DNA of 41,834 bases from a virus. The position numbers and the translations under genes are program-made. Under the pieces are notes generated by a model. That model did not search any database, was not told the origin of the DNA, and worked only from the letters and a program-made list of their open reading frames with translations. Of this stretch, positions 3,614 to 38,730 are shown piece by piece (the stretch's first letter is position 1; the number at the start of each line of letters is the position of its first letter). Location of the stretch: positions 1 through 41,834 of the IMG/VR virus record IMGVR_UViG_3300047564_002222, one strand, 5' to 3'.

Positions 3614-3874
3614 TCAGGATCGCTTGGTGCGCTTCTGTGCCACTATGGCAGGTGTCACAGCAGGGTCGGCAAAGTATACCTTACCGTGCTCTACGATAGT
3701 GTCAACGAATGCCAGAAGAGTTTGCATCATCTTGCGAACCTTTTCGTTGCCATTGTTCTCATTGTAGGCACGAATGAGAAACTGACACACAGCGACTACA
3801 ATTGCGGCAATGGTTGCTAGATTGTGAATCAGGGTGTCGATGAAAGTCCAGTAGAAAGTGTTGGCGGTTTTCAT
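3614..3874 (-). CDS. Membrane protein with one TM segment (86 aa)
   Basis: A hydrophobic segment (LIHNLATIAAIVVAVCQFLI) lies near residues 15-34, followed by a cytoplasmic-type polar region. The C-terminus PAIVAQKRTKRS is encoded by a gene-end element variant (GTGGCACAG) read in frame. Its role is unknown; an inner-membrane location is inferred. Confidence 0.7.
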   Translation of the reverse strand: MKTANTFYWTFIDTLIHNLATIAAIVVAVCQFLIRAYNENNGNEKVRKMMQTLLAFVDTIVEHGKVYFADPAVTPAIVAQKRTKRS

Positions 3875-3992
3875 AACATTAGGGTGTGGGAGGTGAGTGT
3901 AGAGAATTCCTCAACCACGAATCAAACATAACACCACCACGTGGATCAAGTCAAGGGGTTTGGTCCAGTTCTCAAACTGTCACAATGGGGGC

Positions 3993-4021
3993 TTGACATA
4001 GTCTCAAATATTGATTAGAAT
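3993..4021 (+). promoter_or_regulatory. Host-type sigma70 promoter, plus strand
   Basis: TTGACA (3993-3998), a 17-base spacer and TAGAAT (4016-4021) give a near-consensus promoter pointing right. No gene of useful length follows on the plus strand. The 464-bp gap 3875-4338 is otherwise AT-rich, with repeat boxes and the hairpins at 4077-4104. Confidence 0.6.
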
Positions 4022-4076
4022 GTGTTTGTTAACGATGAAGATGAGAAGCTAGATTATATTAATATACTTTAAAGGG

Positions 4077-4104
4077 ATGCCGAAGGCATACCCCGAAGGG
4101 GTAT
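4077..4104. other. Two adjacent stable hairpins
   Basis: ATGCC-GAA-GGCAT (4077-4089) and ATACCCC-GAA-GGGGTAT (4088-4104) are perfect stems of 5 and 7 bp with three-base loops, sharing two bases. They lie about 55 bases downstream of the plus-strand promoter at 3993-4021. Without a U-run they are not classical terminators. Confidence 0.7.
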
Positions 4105-4238
4105 AATATAAGACTCTTAAAGCACATATTCTTGCACATAAGCGAGCTCAACGTGCGCCGTATATGACAACTAGATGTATGTGTGATGTGTAATGTAAAC
4201 TAGATGTGTATGTATATTAAATCTAGTATGATGTATGA

Positions 4239-4333
4239 TCTAGTCTAGTTAATATGATATGATGTGTAATCTCGACGAGATATGAAAAATGTGTGTGCAA
4301 TCTAGTCGAGATCACACACACATCTAGTCGAGT
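4239..4333. repeat. TCTMG-N-CKAGA boxes, left cluster
   Basis: Four 11-bp near-palindromes occur: 4239-4249 (TCTAGTCTAGT), 4270-4280 (TCTCGACGAGA), 4301-4311 (TCTAGTCGAGA) and 4323-4333 (TCTAGTCGAGT). They follow the ArdA-like gene on the minus strand. The same box is repeated nine more times at 5598-5883. Confidence 0.8.
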
Positions 4334-4338
4334 TTTGA

Positions 4339-4773
4339 TTAGTAATCACTAAAGATGTGACACGAACGGTAAGATTTGCCGTCATCACAAGAGGTGAAAT
4401 CATAACGAAGGGAAGAATCCCAAGTCGCTTGCCAGTCTACAACTAAAGCAGAGGGAATACTGTAGAGATCTTCATAATATTCCTCAGCAAAATCTGCCTC
4501 AGAATCATAGCAACCACGATACTTCTCATCACATCCTTCAATGTCACTTATGCAACCCATTTCACCAATCAAAGCGTCGACGGCATCATATCCAATTGCT
4601 TCACCACAACGAACATATTCCTCATAATAGGAAACGAAGTCGTTCTCATTGTACTGGTCAATGAACTCCAGCATATCATCCAAAGCATAATTCTCATCCA
4701 GAAGTTCATCAATCTTCTCAACAGTGTCAACGTTGAGAACTTCCTTGTAGTTGGCGGTGAGAGTGATGGACAT
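4339..4773 (-). CDS. ArdA-like antirestriction protein
   Basis: This 144-aa very acidic protein resembles the ArdA family, DNA mimics that inhibit type I restriction enzymes. Family-like features are in the C-terminal half: YDSEADFAEEYYEDLYSIP followed by VVDWQATWDSSLRYDF (ArdA: ADFAEEL...IP...YIDYEAxARDL) and a helical acidic centre (YNENDFVSYYEEY). It is slightly shorter than typical ArdA (about 165-180 aa) and lacks part of the N-terminal domain. It stands alone with its own leader (GTTCTACATTACATTTG, GAGGGA) and lies in a region of acidic mini-genes and operator-like repeats, consistent with early, anti-host expression. The family call rests on recalled motif similarity. Confidence 0.65.
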   Translation of the reverse strand: MSITLTANYKEVLNVDTVEKIDELLDENYALDDMLEFIDQYNENDFVSYYEEYVRCGEAIGYDAVDALIGEMGCISDIEGCDEKYRGCYDSEADFAEEYYEDLYSIPSALVVDWQATWDSSLRYDFTSCDDGKSYRSCHIFSDY

Positions 4774-4796
4774 TGGGGTGAATCCCTCAGAACAAA

Positions 4797-4857
4797 TGTA
4801 ATGTAGAACGGATTGGGGGGCATTGCAACCCCCCTTGTGCCAGTTTCACACCTGGCA
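4797..4857 (-). terminator. Junction cassette: 8-bp gene-end hairpin and G6/C6 terminator
   Basis: The minus strand reads TGTGCCAG-GTGTGAAA-CTGGCACA, a perfect 8-bp stem whose loop holds the TGA stop of the 4846-5049 gene. A G6/C6 hairpin (4815-4834) and TACATTACA before the ArdA-like gene follow. Confidence 0.7.
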
Positions 4858-5049
4858 CATCTCCACCAGGCGGTTACGGATATCAAACAGTTCCATTTCA
4901 CTCATATCTGCAGAATCAAGATCTACAGGAGCGAACTCTTCCAGATTAATTGTACCATCAGAATAAATGGGAGCATAATACAACTCATCCCCATCTTCTT
5001 GTGAAAGAGTGAATACACAACCGTAGTGAGGCAGAGTGAGAAAAATCAT
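4846..5049 (-). CDS. Small acidic hypothetical protein (67 aa)
   Basis: The protein begins MIFLTLPHYGCVFTLSQEDG, a beta-rich start, then an acidic region and a C-terminal helix (ELFDIRNRLVEMCQV). The function is unknown. It is a single-gene unit between two boundary cassettes. Confidence 0.75.
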   Translation of the reverse strand: MIFLTLPHYGCVFTLSQEDGDELYYAPIYSDGTINLEEFAPVDLDSADMSEMELFDIRNRLVEMCQV

Positions 5050-5070
5050 CAGTGTTTGTGCTCAACGAAT

Positions 5071-5124
5071 GTAATATACCCCCTCACAGAATTCACCGCA
5101 AGGGGGTGTGTGCCAGTTTCAGGA
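5071..5124 (-). promoter_or_regulatory. Junction cassette before the 4846-5049 gene
   Basis: The gene at 5119-5262 ends CCTGAAACTGGCACA (element complement 5109-5118). A stem ACCCCCT/AGGGGGT (5078-5107) and TATATTAC (complement 5071-5078) as -10 follow. Confidence 0.65.
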
Positions 5125-6995: not shown

Positions 6996-7205
6996 TTGTG
7001 ATTCTTCTTCAATTTCTATTATACAACCTGGTTCTTTATTCCAATGACGAATTACACCTGCAATAATGAATAAATTTGTAATCAAATAAGTTATAAAGAT
7101 AACAGTGCGAATCATTGCTATCTTATCAGATTCTTTATCACACTTAGATGCTTTTTCACCTAATGCCTTTGCCCACCATCTCCATAATGTTTTTTTTCTT
7201 TTCAT
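6942..7205 (-). CDS. Single-TM membrane protein (87 aa)
   Basis: A basic, Trp-rich N-terminus (MKRKKTLWRWWAKALGEKAS) is followed by one hydrophobic segment (TVIFITYLITNLFIIAGVI, about residues 34-52) and an acidic tail. The style is common among cyanophage genes; its role is unknown. The last 54 bases overlap the end of the plus-strand endonuclease. It is coupled to the preceding gene by a 4-base overlap. Confidence 0.75.
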   Translation of the reverse strand: MKRKKTLWRWWAKALGEKASKCDKESDKIAMIRTVIFITYLITNLFIIAGVIRHWNKEPGCIIEIEEESQLTKKPPITSPSILSGIT

Positions 7206-7468
7206 GCTTTTTGTTGTTTTAAAAGGCGAAATAACTTTATACCAGGACTATCAAGATTAATCGGAACTCCAGGTGCAATAGGTGGTTTTTGTGGTGCCAT
7301 TTGGGCTTGTTGAGAAGGACCAAAACCAGTTTTTGGATTAATTAAAAATCTTTGTGGTGCTGGATTTGGTGTTCCATCAGTCTTCTTGAGTGGTGGCATT
7401 GCACGATAAGGTTCAAGAGAACGAATATTATTTTCTGCTTCTTTTATGAATTGCGTGAATGTTTTCAC
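7202..7468 (-). CDS. Protein with T4-like capsid-targeting N-terminus (88 aa)
   Basis: The N-terminus MKTFTQFIKEAEN is close to the capsid-targeting sequence of T4 internal proteins (MKTYQEFIAEA), which the gp21 prohead protease cleaves after the glutamate of [LI]-x-E. Here IKE|A would be the cleavage site near residue 10. The remainder is Pro-rich and low in order (APQRFLINPKTGFGPSQQAQ) and ends in a short basic helix (LFRLLKQQKA). By analogy it may be packaged in the head and injected with DNA. This is inferred from the motif only. Confidence 0.65.
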   Translation of the reverse strand: MKTFTQFIKEAENNIRSLEPYRAMPPLKKTDGTPNPAPQRFLINPKTGFGPSQQAQMAPQKPPIAPGVPINLDSPGIKLFRLLKQQKA

Positions 7469-10121: not shown

Positions 10122-10432
10122 TAACCTACGACTCTCCAACAAACAATAGCATTGCCCTTACTCGTAGAAGAAATATGAGCAAAGGCAGCATAAGAAAGAT
10201 CCAAATCAGCGTGACTATATGGACCACGATCATTCACTCTTACAATGACTTGTTTAAGATTATCTTGATTTGTTATTCTTATGCGTGTACCCATAGGTAG
10301 ATAAGGATGAGCTGCAGTCCAACGATAAGCATCAAACCTTTCCCCATTTGCGGTGATTTTTCCATGAAAACCATCTCCTACTCCGTAGTATGTAGCAATA
10401 CCACAGGTCAAACCAGCAATCAATCCAATCAT
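10121..10432 (-). CDS. RlpA-like double-psi beta-barrel protein (103 aa)
   Basis: The sequence GIATYYGVGDGFHGKITANG, then AAHPYLPMGTRIRIT and VIVRVNDRGPYSHADLDLS, fits the RlpA barrel found in septal-ring lytic transglycosylases. The TANGE and NDRGP segments include the family's catalytic-type Asp. A short hydrophobic start (MIGLIAGLTCG) may act as a signal. It could act on the host cell wall during lysis or entry. The SPOR domain of bacterial RlpA is absent. Confidence 0.8.
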   Translation of the reverse strand: MIGLIAGLTCGIATYYGVGDGFHGKITANGERFDAYRWTAAHPYLPMGTRIRITNQDNLKQVIVRVNDRGPYSHADLDLSYAAFAHISSTSKGNAIVCWRVVG

Positions 10433-10659
10433 CGAATTCCTCCCGAATAAGTTTCAGAATCACTTACTTGATTATTTTTAACCTCCCAAATATAACGACT
10501 TAGTTGTTGAATAGAAGATGCAATATTACTGTCCAATTGTGAGACTTGATATTGCATTCTAACGACTTGAAGATATAAATTCAGGCACATTCCTAAGTTG
10601 ATAACAGTGCCCGCAACAAGAGCATACTTGATGAGTTTGTTTCGTTGCTCATTCATCAT
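10429..10659 (-). CDS. Single-TM coiled-coil protein (76 aa)
   Basis: A TM segment (YALVAGTVINLGMCLNLYL, about residues 12-30) is followed by a coiled-coil-like Gln/Ser-rich region. The topology (short cytoplasmic N-terminus, helical exterior) resembles an inner-membrane spanin or anti-holin but no family is recognised. It overlaps both neighbours by 4 bases. Confidence 0.7.
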   Translation of the reverse strand: MMNEQRNKLIKYALVAGTVINLGMCLNLYLQVVRMQYQVSQLDSNIASSIQQLSRYIWEVKNNQVSDSETYSGGIR

Positions 10660-10859
10660 TTCAGTTCGATTCGATCAAAGATTAGCATACCCAGTTCAAA
10701 AAGTAAATCCTCATCCATATCCCCCATTACACTGCGAATACCCTCCACCACGGCAGTTTGCATATATTCGACAAATCCTTCATCTTCATAAATGTAATCA
10801 ATGACTGCTGGTTTGAGAGCATCAGAGATCTTTGTAACAGAAGTAGTAGAAAGTTTCAT
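10656..10859 (-). CDS. Small acidic hypothetical protein (67 aa)
   Basis: The product begins MKLSTTSVTKISDALKPAVI and contains an acidic helical C-terminus (DMDEDLLFELGMLIF). Function is unknown. Confidence 0.7.
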   Translation of the reverse strand: MKLSTTSVTKISDALKPAVIDYIYEDEGFVEYMQTAVVEGIRSVMGDMDEDLLFELGMLIFDRIELK

Positions 10860-10862
10860 GAA

Positions 10863-11021
10863 TCAGTTGTCAGAGTAGAGTTTCCAGCCATCAGGATGAA
10901 TTCCCAGTTCTTCACAACGAACCTCATAAGCAATCCGTTGCAGAAGGCGAAGATCCATACCGCTCACCTCTTTGAAAATGGATCTGCGGATCTGAGCGTC
11001 GTGTGTGGTGTCTGTGACCAT
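10863..11021 (-). CDS. Small hypothetical protein (52 aa)
   Basis: The start at 11021 has a good Shine-Dalgarno (AAGGGAA) and follows the TATAAT box at 11046-11051. The product begins MVTDTTHDAQIRRSIFKEVS. Function is unknown. Confidence 0.75.
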   Translation of the reverse strand: MVTDTTHDAQIRRSIFKEVSGMDLRLLQRIAYEVRCEELGIHPDGWKLYSDN

Positions 11022-11045
11022 TGCGGTTCCCTTGATTACCTTCTT

Positions 11046-11108
11046 ATTATAAAGGCAACACCGCCTCACTGCGAGTGCGCTGTGCCAGTTTGGAAGATGG
11101 CACATTCA
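11046..11108 (-). promoter_or_regulatory. Junction cassette inside the methyltransferase 3' end
   Basis: TGTGCCA-TCTTCCAAAC-TGGCACA (7-bp stem, complement within 11091-11108) lies inside the coding sequence. It is followed by a GCACTCGC..GTGAGGCGG segment and TATAAT (complement 11046-11051). The methyltransferase stop codon TAA is part of the TATAAT box. Confidence 0.75.
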
Positions 11109-11616
11109 GTTGTTCCATTATGATTTGTTTTGGTAGAAAGTTCCAGCAATAGTAGCTACTACTGAACGTAATCTTGTCGTTTGGGCGTCCATCAGGACTA
11201 TGAAACTTCATCCTCTTATCAAACATCAAGAGTTGCAGATCTTTATCCTTAAACAACTGCTTTGGAGCACTGTCATTCAACCAAGTGTTCGTCATAATGA
11301 GAGCAAATGGTTTATTGAATGATAGTGCTCGCTCAAAGAACTTACGTTTATTTGTAAATGGTGGATTAGATACAATTACATCCCAATCAGATGGTTCATA
11401 GGTAAGAAAGTCCTGCCCATACTTGATATGAGTGAATACAACTTCATTCTGCTTTGAAATCTGCTTGACAAATTCACTATCGATGGTATCAAATGGACAC
11501 CAGACTTTTGCATCTTTGGGGATATATTTAAGAATGGGTGCTACACCGTAGGCAGGAGTATACGCTTCATCACCACCACCAGATGTAAACATCAGTTTTC
11601 CACTATCAATCGTCAT
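11047..11616 (-). CDS. DNA adenine methyltransferase-like protein (189 aa)
   Basis: The NPPF catalytic motif of N6-adenine/N4-cytosine methyltransferases is present (DVIVSNPPFTNKRKFFERAL, about residues 80-99). Before it come VWCPFDTIDSEFV, a motif-I-like SAM-binding region, and a GQDF acidic loop. The C-terminal extension KLAQRTRSEAVLPL is encoded by a gene-end element whose stop is lost. It overlaps the nuclease-like gene upstream by 4 bases, so the two are probably made together. It could instead be an orphan phage methylase protecting against host restriction. Confidence 0.75.
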   Translation of the reverse strand: MTIDSGKLMFTSGGGDEAYTPAYGVAPILKYIPKDAKVWCPFDTIDSEFVKQISKQNEVVFTHIKYGQDFLTYEPSDWDVIVSNPPFTNKRKFFERALSFNKPFALIMTNTWLNDSAPKQLFKDKDLQLLMFDKRMKFHSPDGRPNDKITFSSSYYCWNFLPKQIIMEQLNVPSSKLAQRTRSEAVLPL

Positions 11617-12110
11617 ACAATACGAGTCCCAAATTGTTGGATTTCTTTCTTAGTTAGATTACCAGAGAGACGGGGATCTTTGTGCTTACCGTTAATCTTA
11701 CGCTCCCAATCTTTCTTAAGTTTAGGAAGAAGAATCATCAGCACATCATTACCAGTCAGTTTCCAAACTTCTACGACTTTTCCACCATTATATCGGGCAA
11801 TATAGTGATTAGAATACTTACCAAGTTTTTCCTCAATGAGATAACGTTCCTGCTCTTCCCAGGTATCTTGAACACTGATACCATTATACGTCCCATTGAT
11901 AGAATTTGCAATGGTGGATTTATACTCACATTCGCCATCATCATCAATAGCATCAGCACCAGAATAAGTTTCTGCTACTTTATGTCCAAGAATACCAGCA
12001 AGATGTATCTCACGGGAGCGAGCATAACTGAAAGGATCTCCCCAACCTTGCCCCTCACAAAGTTGATACATTTCCTCAAACAGTTGTTGAAACTTTTGTT
12101 CTGGTGTCAT
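11613..12110 (-). CDS. PD-(D/E)XK restriction-endonuclease-like protein (165 aa)
   Basis: The segment SGADAIDDDGECEYKST (about residues 50-66) fits the D...ExK metal-binding core of PD-(D/E)XK nucleases. YNGISVQDTWEEQERYLIEE and a basic C-terminus (KLKKDWERKINGKHKDPRLS) follow, as in several type II restriction enzymes. The start at 12110 (MTPEQKFQQLFEEMY) is preferred because it follows the TATAAT box at 12133 and avoids overlap with the SprT-like gene; a GTG at 12191 is the alternative. Activity and specificity cannot be read from sequence. Its pairing with the methyltransferase suggests restriction-modification. Confidence 0.65.
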   Translation of the reverse strand: MTPEQKFQQLFEEMYQLCEGQGWGDPFSYARSREIHLAGILGHKVAETYSGADAIDDDGECEYKSTIANSINGTYNGISVQDTWEEQERYLIEEKLGKYSNHYIARYNGGKVVEVWKLTGNDVLMILLPKLKKDWERKINGKHKDPRLSGNLTKKEIQQFGTRIV

Positions 12111-12132
12111 TGGATCAATTGCTTGGATTTGT

Positions 12133-12180
12133 ATTATACTGCCCACATCAGGCGGTTTGGGAAGAACTGTACCACTTGTT
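12133..12180 (-). promoter_or_regulatory. Junction cassette inside the SprT-like gene 3' end
   Basis: GGACGGATCAACAAGTGGTACA, a variant gene-end element, is translated as part of the SprT-like protein. It is followed by a TATAAT box (complement 12133-12138) that contains its TAA stop. This promoter serves the nuclease-like and methyltransferase genes. Confidence 0.7.
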
Positions 12181-12610
12181 GATCCGTCCACCCATTCTTC
12201 TCAAACAAATACTCTAAGTATAGAGTTTCTTCTTGCTCTCGTGCCTCTATTTCATGTGGTTGATGCCAATAGTCGTACTTTTCAACAGGTTCTTTAGAGT
12301 AACACAATTTTCCGTATCGGAACCGCAGAGAACCGACTACCCACTGTCGCAGGTGGGTCAATTCATGCAAAAGAGTTTTTATATACAACTCCTTCTCCAT
12401 ATAAGTTTGAAGTTCAATCAGAAACTCACGAGGACGATAAGATTCGCCCACATAGTCACAATAACCATAAACCTGCTCACGTTTCAGACCACGATGAAGT
12501 ATTTCTACTTCAATCTTATGGCGTGGAAGGAATCGATTCAAAAACCAAGTGGTAACATCCTCACAGAGTAGTTTAGAATAACCATATCCAGAAGTTTGAA
12601 TGTAAGACAT
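12134..12610 (-). CDS. SprT-like zinc metallopeptidase (158 aa)
   Basis: HELTHLRQW near residue 83 provides the HExxH zinc motif, and HEIEAREQE about 35 residues later supplies the third ligand, as in SprT/Spartan-like and WSS1-like peptidases. No zinc-ribbon tail is visible. The last 20 residues are encoded by a gene-end element in which the stop is missing (DQQVVQFFPNRLMWAV). It precedes the nuclease/methyltransferase pair. A link to DNA-protein crosslink processing is a family-level suggestion only. Confidence 0.75.
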   Translation of the reverse strand: MSYIQTSGYGYSKLLCEDVTTWFLNRFLPRHKIEVEILHRGLKREQVYGYCDYVGESYRPREFLIELQTYMEKELYIKTLLHELTHLRQWVVGSLRFRYGKLCYSKEPVEKYDYWHQPHEIEAREQEETLYLEYLFEKNGWTDQQVVQFFPNRLMWAV

Positions 12611-12658
12611 TGCCCCCAGTGCATAAACAAAATGAATGAAGAGATGAAGATTAGTTTG

Positions 12659-12760
12659 TTAGTTGTCGTCATCCTTTTTGGTAAATTGCATTAATGCATA
12701 GTTAATGAAACTAGCGCCAATGGCAGCAATGAACCACCAGAAGAAAATAGAAGAAATCAT
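12659..12760 (-). CDS. Single-TM mini-protein (33 aa)
   Basis: The product MISSIFFWWFIAAIGASFIN... is one hydrophobic helix followed by a charged tail (KKDDDN). It is supported by an ATGA overlap with the gene before it. Small membrane proteins of this size can modulate host membranes; no homologue is recognised. Confidence 0.65.
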   Translation of the reverse strand: MISSIFFWWFIAAIGASFINYALMQFTKKDDDN

Positions 12761-13116
12761 CTTGCGTAAAGATAATTTCCTGCCCAATCGGCGTTCTCAA
12801 ACAACCATTCACGCTGCTCAATGATGCGGAGATCATAGCGAACACCTTTGGCGGGTGCTTTCCAAGATGCAGACTTGTAAACCTCACCAGTTTTCTTATC
12901 AATGAAGCAGTGAACAGAGCGACCACCAGCAGAATCAATCATAATGACCTTGTGATACTTGTTGCCAGACTCGAAGATGTAGTCATAACCATCAGGAGCA
13001 GCATCACGCAGAGCATCACAGAACATCCAAGTCCACTTAACAACATTCAGTTGAATAGTGTTCTGGGCATCACGTTGGGCACAGAAGGCGCTGAACTCTT
13101 TGTTGAGGGTAGGCAT
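12757..13116 (-). CDS. Conserved-looking phage protein (119 aa)
   Basis: The start at 13116 follows the TATAAT box at 13138. The product begins MPTLNKEFSAFCAQRDAQNT and contains YDYIFESGNKYHKVIMIDSA and FIDKKTGEVYKSASWKAPAK, segments I recall as well conserved in cyanophages. A beta-sheet fold is likely; function unknown. Confidence 0.8.
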   Translation of the reverse strand: MPTLNKEFSAFCAQRDAQNTIQLNVVKWTWMFCDALRDAAPDGYDYIFESGNKYHKVIMIDSAGGRSVHCFIDKKTGEVYKSASWKAPAKGVRYDLRIIEQREWLFENADWAGNYLYAR

Positions 13117-37693: not shown

Positions 37694-37897
37694 TCAATAC
37701 GGCAACGACTTCAGACCATTTAGAACTTCCTCAAACCTTTCAGCACGTCTCTTGTGATGTGCTACATTATCCTCAAGAATACTCATAATATCATCCAACA
37801 CAACATCCAGTGATGCGTCAGTGTCAAAATATTTTTGGATTGCTTCAGAAAGATATCTCTTCCTGCTCCATTCCATACTATAAGGTTTGTAGTCCAT
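37694..37897 (-). CDS. Small hypothetical protein (67 aa)
   Basis: The product begins MDYKPYSMEWSRKRYLSEAI, is helical and ends FEEVLNGLKSLPY. It is the first gene after the consensus promoter at 37920-37948. Confidence 0.75.
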   Translation of the reverse strand: MDYKPYSMEWSRKRYLSEAIQKYFDTDASLDVVLDDIMSILEDNVAHHKRRAERFEEVLNGLKSLPY

Positions 37898-37919: not shown

Positions 37920-37948
37920 ATTATAAAGTATTTTAAATATTATGTCAA
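37920..37948 (-). promoter_or_regulatory. Perfect sigma70 consensus promoter
   Basis: On the minus strand, TTGACA (37948-37943), a 17-base spacer and TATAAT (37925-37920) match the bacterial housekeeping consensus exactly. The TGA stop of the HiPIP-like gene is inside the -35 box. It should be read by unmodified host polymerase, in contrast to the T4-type late promoters. Confidence 0.85.
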
Positions 37949-38148
37949 TCTTTATTTTTTCTATTATATTGATGCCACTTACACCATCCTTCAGGTGAAA
38001 TCTTACCTTTCACGGCAGTACAAGCATTAGGTGGTCTCCACATATTACAATTGGAACATTTTTCATTTCCTTTTGGTTCATTTTGGTATCCAGCAGTTGC
38101 TTTTGAGGACTTTTCTTCTTCAAAAAGAAACTCTTGCAGTGTTTTCAT
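37945..38148 (-). CDS. HiPIP-like protein with capsid-targeting-like N-terminus (67 aa)
   Basis: The start at 38148 gives a one-base overlap with the upstream stop. The N-terminus MKTLQEFLFEEEK matches the T4 capsid-targeting sequence (MKTYQEFIAEA) with an LFE|E cleavage-type site. The C-terminal half has four cysteines: CSNC, then ACTAVKGKISPEGWCKWH. It is close to the high-potential iron-sulfur protein signature (C-x6-[LIVM]-x3-G-W-C-x2-aromatic), although the last position is His and spacings are shorter. A zinc knuckle is the alternative. It may be a head-packaged metalloprotein. Confidence 0.65.
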   Translation of the reverse strand: MKTLQEFLFEEEKSSKATAGYQNEPKGNEKCSNCNMWRPPNACTAVKGKISPEGWCKWHQYNRKNKD

Positions 38149-38471
38149 CAGTCTCTTTGTCTCCAATCAGTTTCGTCATCATCTCTCTTAAACCAATCGT
38201 GCAGATCTTCAGGAGAATCAAATCCACGAATACCATATCTTTCGTGACCTAGACCACCAAGATCCATCTGATTCATAAAGTCATCTAAACTACCTTCAAC
38301 CATATCAGGATTCTCTGCCTTTCTTCTTGCTTGACGAAGTATTGTGGCAGCACTTCTGTTTGCTTTGGCAAGTTTTTCGCACCAAACCATCTCCTCCAAA
38401 CTTACCTCTTCGTGTCTTGCAATACGATTACAAATTTCTTCAAGTTTAAGTCGGTATTGTGTAGAAAGCAT
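38148..38471 (-). CDS. Conserved-looking phage protein (107 aa)
   Basis: The product begins MLSTQYRLKLEEICNRIARH and contains GLGHERYGIRGFDSPEDLHD. It is helical at the start with an acidic tail (FKRDDDETDWRQRD). A probable late promoter lies upstream at 38491-38498. Confidence 0.8.
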   Translation of the reverse strand: MLSTQYRLKLEEICNRIARHEEVSLEEMVWCEKLAKANRSAATILRQARRKAENPDMVEGSLDDFMNQMDLGGLGHERYGIRGFDSPEDLHDWFKRDDDETDWRQRD

Positions 38472-38490: not shown

Positions 38491-38498
38491 TTATTTAT
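38491..38498 (-). promoter_or_regulatory. Possible late promoter (ATAAATAA)
   Basis: AATAAATAAATC on the minus strand lies about 20 bases before the 38148-38471 start and overlaps the end of the upstream gene. If real, it would put the HiPIP-like gene under late control. Confidence 0.4.
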
Positions 38499-38730
38499 TT
38501 TTAGATTCTATCTCTTTCTGTATCTCTTCCGCAAGTTTATATGCCCTTCTCCACATAATGTACTTTACAATCGGATTACGAGGATTGTGAAGTATCCACC
38601 ACTTTGTTTTTTCGTATTGAACTCTTACAATTTGAGTCAGCAAATAAAATCCTCTTGCTACAGACTGGTCTGTGATAATCAAGTAAGCAATACAAAAGAA
38701 TATGACAAAGTAGATATATGTATTATTCAT
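38491..38730 (-). CDS. Single-TM basic protein (79 aa)
   Basis: An N-terminal TM (YIYFVIFFCIAYLIIT) is followed by a basic amphipathic region (VQYEKTKWWILHNPRNPIVK) and a Lys/Glu tail. The WWILHNPxNPIVKYxxWRR pattern is familiar from cyanophages. Membrane association is inferred. Confidence 0.8.
   Translation of the reverse strand: MNNTYIYFVIFFCIAYLIITDQSVARGFYLLTQIVRVQYEKTKWWILHNPRNPIVKYIMWRRAYKLAEEIQKEIESKNK

Follow-up and report, generated by a model that had tools for sequence, protein, structure and literature searches.

The most likely reading of a small gene on the minus strand of the analysed window (37945..38148, stop included; 67 residues) is that it encodes a high-potential iron-sulfur protein (HiPIP) which is probably directed into the phage head by a capsid-targeting sequence (CTS), matured by the prohead protease and packaged, as a variant of the T4-type internal head proteins. 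The window (the whole stretch of 41,834 nucleotides) comes from IMG/VR as a fragment of 41.8 kb, and over its right third it corresponds to Synechococcus phage S-SRM01, a freshwater member of the Kyanoviridae with a genome of 240,842 bp. HiPIPs are a known class of protein, as are CTS proteins; what is apparently unreported is their combination, and indeed any HiPIP in a phage, since no report of either was found in a full-text literature search that relied in part on titles and abstracts and left most subscription journals outside.

The open reading frame translates as MKTLQEFLFEEEKSSKATAGYQNEPKGNEKCSNCNMWRPPNACTAVKGKISPEGWCKWHQYNRKNKD. It represents a real gene, since a syntenic ortholog with the same annotated start is present in isolate S-SRM01 (QPX48026.1, annotated as hypothetical; 89.6% identity) and relatives were found at 75 viral loci, close ones on 72 contigs and distant ones on three more. 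In all segments of the gene pN/pS lies between 0.05 and 0.21 (47 distinct DNA sequences), which indicates selection on both the tag and the domain. The HiPIP-like, targeting-like reading frame singled out by the initial annotation is confirmed as a gene. The conserved start is the ATG, because in several relatives the reading frame is closed by a stop one to three codons before it; for the same reason an upstream TTG (38166), which would place the tag inside the protein, was rejected. PHROGs contains no family for this protein, and a genome scan bearing on a possible host origin, made with narrow patterns, returned proteobacterial HiPIPs exclusively.

Sequence and predicted structure agree that residues 15-60 (37969..38106, minus strand) are a HiPIP domain of the PioC/Iro subgroup. 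The closest solved relative retrieved by phmmer is PioC (E=1.6e-11), and a profile built from 45 relatives matched many solved HiPIPs in the PDB, starting from 1.4e-16. Pfam HIPIP (PF01355) is the top match of the query, with E=2.8e-4 and 21.5 bits, just below the cut-off of 22, and it is matched by 38 of the 45 family members (E<=0.001); the NCBIfam iron oxidase Iro model is matched by all 45 (E<=0.01), the query scoring well below its equivalog cut-off. The AlphaFold model (pLDDT 82) superimposes on PioC with 1.3 Å over 49 alignment columns in Foldseek, where all rows are HiPIPs, and with a Z of 7.7 and 1.7 Å over 54 residues in VIA-align, where the HiPIPs are accompanied by one weak row (Z 2.9); a Z below 8 is not decisive by itself, and the weight of this result comes from the nearly pure HiPIP ranking and from its agreement with the sequence matches. 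The four predicted cluster ligands span 37981..38058 on the minus strand (C31, 38056-38058; C34, 38047-38049; C43, 38020-38022; C56, 37981-37983) and satisfy, with GWC, the order C-x2-C-x(8-16)-C-x(10-13)-G-[YWF]-C. Conservation of the cysteines had been set beforehand as a test of the HiPIP-like four-cysteine domain proposed by the initial annotation, and all four are invariant in 45 diverse phage and bacterial members, as are Y21, V46, G48, I50, G54 and W55, and likewise in 42 close proteins; together with the homology to PioC and the fold match, this bears out the proposal.

The first ten codons (38119..38148, minus strand) specify MKTLQEFLFE, a putative capsid-targeting propeptide. In T4 IPIII the first ten residues suffice for entry into the head, residues 4 and 7 being important for targeting and residues 8 and 10 for processing (PMC9026906). 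According to the T4 record, the CTS of IPII and IPIII is MKTYQEFIAE, with which the window protein shares seven of ten residues; relatives starting with MKSYQEFIAE (L019, L060, L061, L063, L064) share nine. Such an N-terminus is not due to chance: among 1,169 control open reading frames of three cyanophages, identity to the T4 CTS never exceeded five of ten. All 42 distinct relatives have K at position 2, F or Y at position 7, L or I at position 8 and E at position 10, with F, Y or L at position 4 (Leu in the window protein, Phe in most relatives), while positions 3, 5, 6 and 9 are more variable. All 71 complete N-termini of relatives conform to the CTS pattern, so that no sequence was lost to the filter applied in collecting them.

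Processing would occur after E10 (38119/38118, minus strand), a predicted site resembling that in the major capsid protein of S-SRM01, whose gp23 propeptide would end SFLSE/ASPTN at the expected junction; most HiPIP relatives read EFLSE/EEK, with the same FLSE residues, and similar LxE-like putative junctions occur in gp23 of other HiPIP phages. Both a Peptidase_S77 (gp21-type) and Gp23 are present in S-SRM01 and in five large relatives. In S-SRM01 the gene at 135233-135883 of MW015081.1 (L080), annotated as 'primosomal protein', matches Peptidase_S77, the prohead protease gp21, with 7.6e-38. The N-terminus described by the initial annotation as recurrent in the window does recur, in a second CTS-like protein of 88 residues with a GTG start (7202..7468, minus strand; MKTFTQFIKEAENN), which begins MKTFTQFIKEA and belongs to no family that could be found. 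Thus, the near identity to the T4 CTS, the preservation of the positions mapped in T4, the resemblance of the predicted junctions and the co-occurrence of S77 and gp23 in S-SRM01 and large relatives all favour the capsid-targeting reading made initially.

The value of the tag as a predictor of packaging was assessed on T4 and on virion mass spectrometry from the literature. A pattern, ^MK.[FYLIW]..[FYLI][LIMVTN].{1,2}E, was drawn from T4 and S-SRM01 and applied to the annotated genes of S-CREM2, S-SCSM1 and S-SZBM1; the contents of the S-CREM2 table were already known at the time of the scan, but were not used to adjust the pattern. When it is put into degenerate DNA form, T4 contains three matching sites only, ipII, ipIII and 61.1. 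Gene 61.1 (NC_000866, 18966-19130, minus strand; L249) encodes 54 residues starting MKTFKEFIKE and is, by this resemblance, a candidate extra internal protein. In the three cyanophages, five of the eight CTS-pattern genes have products in virions against 1.5 expected (P=0.008, with gene and detected-protein counts as stated in the papers and records), and this over-representation further strengthens the capsid-targeting interpretation. All four CTS-pattern proteins of S-CREM2 (OR473000.1; L220, L223) were detected, and none is obviously structural: a SAM hydrolase (3837-5081), ORF13 (10310-10546), an APH-like kinase (10579-12846) and a cytidylyltransferase (124608-125468). The corresponding figures are one of two for S-SCSM1 and none of two for S-SZBM1; of the three proteins missed, those of S-SCSM1 44215-44535 and S-SZBM1_191 look like members of one small family, MK.FK.F.SESVNISGDFNGNLY, whose S-SRM01 member is phrog_1742. 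A version of the pattern with K or R at position 2 was dropped because it fails to match the S-SZBM1 cytidylyltransferase (MRFRQFIIEA). The S-CREM2 authors allow for carry-over or contamination in the case of non-structural virion proteins. The Cas9-like virion protein of the same phage (ORF12) contains an internal LRFASFMAEAA. A search for virion proteomes gave none from a phage with this HiPIP gene, the main text of the S-SRM01 paper containing no mass spectrometry. One HiPIP-carrying relative (G005:C1 56962-57303; L244, L246) has two more CTS-pattern genes, for proteins starting MKTFSQFMSES (97 residues) and MKTFSEFIAEA (216 residues); the latter includes a 'AHYTSASNKENILKTGF' stretch that may be reminiscent of ADP-ribosyltransferases.

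The HiPIP gene is preceded on the minus strand by a phrog_507 gene (38148..38471; 107 residues), whose stop overlaps the HiPIP start by one base (TGATG), an arrangement also seen in S-SRM01; from this overlap the two genes are regarded as one unit. The phrog_507 protein has no CTS, a point that counts against the packaging reading. A late-promoter-like motif, AATAAATA (38492..38499, minus strand), lies about 20 nt upstream of the two-gene unit. The upstream late-type promoter of the initial annotation therefore exists as a motif, but it is located before the preceding phrog_507 gene and not before the HiPIP gene, directly in front of which no promoter was found. The motif [AC]TAAATA precedes many late genes of S-SRM01, including its other CTS-pattern genes, and, of 18 relatives looked at, 17 have it in the 600 bases before the HiPIP gene, although these relatives are kin and not independent; the motif agrees with late expression of the unit. 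At the end of the HiPIP gene, a perfect sigma-70 promoter (TTGACA-17-TATAAT; window 37920-37948, minus strand) faces the phrog_1461 gene (37694-37897), and its sequence suggests that an early transcription unit starts there.

HiPIP domains are also found in other phages. A motif scan of IMG/VR gave at least 120 stretches, most of them HiPIP-like; among the matches listed, CTS-like N-termini in other lineages include MKSFQQFTEG, MKSYTQFNEE, MKTFNQILSE and MKTLNDFLDEE, and in L148 and L151 the HiPIP gene overlaps another CTS-pattern gene, starting MKTFQEFISEA. Fusions to portal proteins (L201, L087, L074) and to head maturation proteases (L084, L150, L191) are present among the matches listed, and these fusions to head proteins lend additional support to the capsid-targeting reading; other fusions are not to head proteins, namely to a tail protein in L141 and to a phosphatase-like domain in L100. 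Stand-alone HiPIP genes adjoin portal (L185) or terminase (L200) genes. The L141 protein, which matches tail proteins (phrog_5939), belongs to a group whose members are related to one another and have their HiPIP-like domain close to the N-terminus; the others are in L093, L134, L092, L136, L086, L164, L115 and L103.

A different architecture is found in a long protein with a CTS-like start, MTLSHRTIFNEA/P, encoded in L123 (969-4415, plus strand), L091 (2-2296, minus strand) and L184 (8522-10858, plus strand), where the HiPIP and a 'FHYT' domain are set apart by xEA(A) motifs. The L123 protein also holds a cytidyltransferase, upstream of the HiPIP, and a ParB-like domain; the motif [LIVFM]xE[AS] occurs in it nine times against 3.0 in shuffled sequences, nine being reached in six of 2000 shuffles. 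The same arrangement, with an amidoligase domain, is present in L193. Since xEAA motifs flank the HiPIP and the cytidyltransferases of cyanophages are CTS-bearing virion proteins, the protein looks like a polyprotein with putative cutting sites for the head protease, the HiPIP being one of the products. It may be that tailed phages have repeatedly adopted the HiPIP domain as a part of the virion, packaged through a CTS in T4-like cyanophages, released by the head protease from a polyprotein in others and fused to portal or protease elsewhere. Many phages would then arrive in the cell with a high-potential electron carrier of their own, or would employ one while the head matures; we place this generalization just short of an even chance.

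In the proposed mechanism, the small HiPIP would be synthesized late, and one [4Fe-4S]3+/2+ cluster per protein is predicted, by analogy with known HiPIPs, to be inserted in the cytoplasm of the previous host. The protein would then enter the prohead core through its T4-type N-terminal CTS and be trimmed after Glu10 by the gp21-type (S77) protease; the basic mature form (57 residues, calculated pI 9.2) would be kept in the head with the DNA and, by analogy, presumably released with it into the cyanobacterium at infection. Cleavage and packaging are supported by sequence, while delivery to the host is inferred. HiPIPs ordinarily transfer electrons or buffer redox state, and the mature protein might do the same, carrying one electron at a time or serving as a buffer, whether inside the filled head or during the first minutes after infection; this redox role is proposed tentatively, with confidence below even. 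We know of no partner for a HiPIP in the cytoplasm of cyanobacteria, and its fusion to head proteins in other phages also suggests a function in the particle.

Such a role in the particle could be the main one, the HiPIP serving as a module for head assembly or stability during morphogenesis, with delivery to the host as an incidental consequence. Fusions to portal proteins, head maturation proteases and a tail protein, as well as the stand-alone genes next to portal or terminase, speak for it; however, in the cyanophage the HiPIP is a separate gene outside the head cluster, and its polyprotein partners are enzyme-like domains rather than shell proteins. We regard this explanation as unlikely, although worth keeping in view. 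Somewhat more improbable is that the protein is made and used only in the infected cell, as an auxiliary redox gene comparable to phage ferredoxin, its N-terminus being a family habit that plays no part in packaging. S-SRM01 does carry other redox genes (ferredoxin, glutaredoxin, peroxiredoxin), and three of the eight CTS-pattern proteins went undetected in virions; against this, conservation falls on the CTS positions mapped in T4, the T4 control and the virion over-representation connect the tag with packaging, HiPIP domains occur in fusions with head proteins and with a cytidyltransferase of a kind that is found in virions, and a late-type motif lies upstream.

The 'Ferrojan Horse' idea concerns phage tails; applied to the head, it would make the packaged cluster a delivery of iron to the virocell, or a bait. 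Four iron atoms would be present per molecule if the cluster is there, and iron in virions is an idea under discussion in the literature. However, for packaged T4 fusion proteins 20-200 copies are quoted, which would correspond to 80-800 iron atoms, probably little with respect to the need of a cell, and we consider this explanation distinctly improbable. Least probable, to the point of being hardly credible, is the zinc-knuckle protein that the initial annotation offered as its alternative. Taken here to include a zinc ribbon, it would bind zinc through the four cysteines and work inside the particle as a structural protein or a binder of nucleic acid. The small size and basic character of the protein and its four cysteines are compatible with this, but no zinc family is matched in Pfam at E<=10, where HIPIP ranks first (a missing match being no proof), the sequence and fold searches, weak rows excepted, lead to HiPIPs, and the Tyr and the V.G.I...GWC pattern are invariant; thus, this alternative found no support.

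If packaging through the CTS is true, the phage brings a finished redox cofactor protein into the cell together with its genome, which would open the early control of redox state in a photosynthetic host, or the carriage of iron in phage heads, to direct tests. In addition, the CTS pattern would provide a sequence rule for the 'regulatory' virion proteins of cyanophages that have been suspected of carry-over, such as the SAM hydrolase, the kinase and the NMNAT-like cytidylyltransferase.

Four known systems can be compared with the protein described here. PioC of Rhodopseudomonas palustris TIE-1 (PDB 6xyv) is about 40% identical in the domain, with the same four cysteines and Tyr and a fold within 1.3-1.7 Å; it is described in PMC10304953 as part of the bacterial pio iron-oxidation operon, whereas the phage protein carries an N-terminal putative capsid-targeting peptide. 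T4 IPII and IPIII share with the phage protein the conserved CTS positions and a basic mature protein, the closest isolate, S-SRM01, being a T4-type phage with the gp21-type protease and gp23; they differ in their cargo, here a HiPIP redox domain, and in that packaging and cleavage are here read from sequence. We know of no T4 internal protein that is a metalloprotein. The NMNAT-like cytidylyltransferase of cyanophages also has a CTS-like N-terminus and is found in virions of S-CREM2, S-SCSM1, S-SZBM1 and S-SM1, but it is an enzyme with mass spectrometric evidence, while the HiPIP is a predicted electron carrier known here from its genes. Finally, gpL is the tail-tip iron-sulfur protein of lambda, and proteins of its type are virion proteins with an Fe-S cluster, as is predicted for the HiPIP; unlike gpL, which is located in the tail and has another fold, the HiPIP would be a soluble protein packaged in the head.
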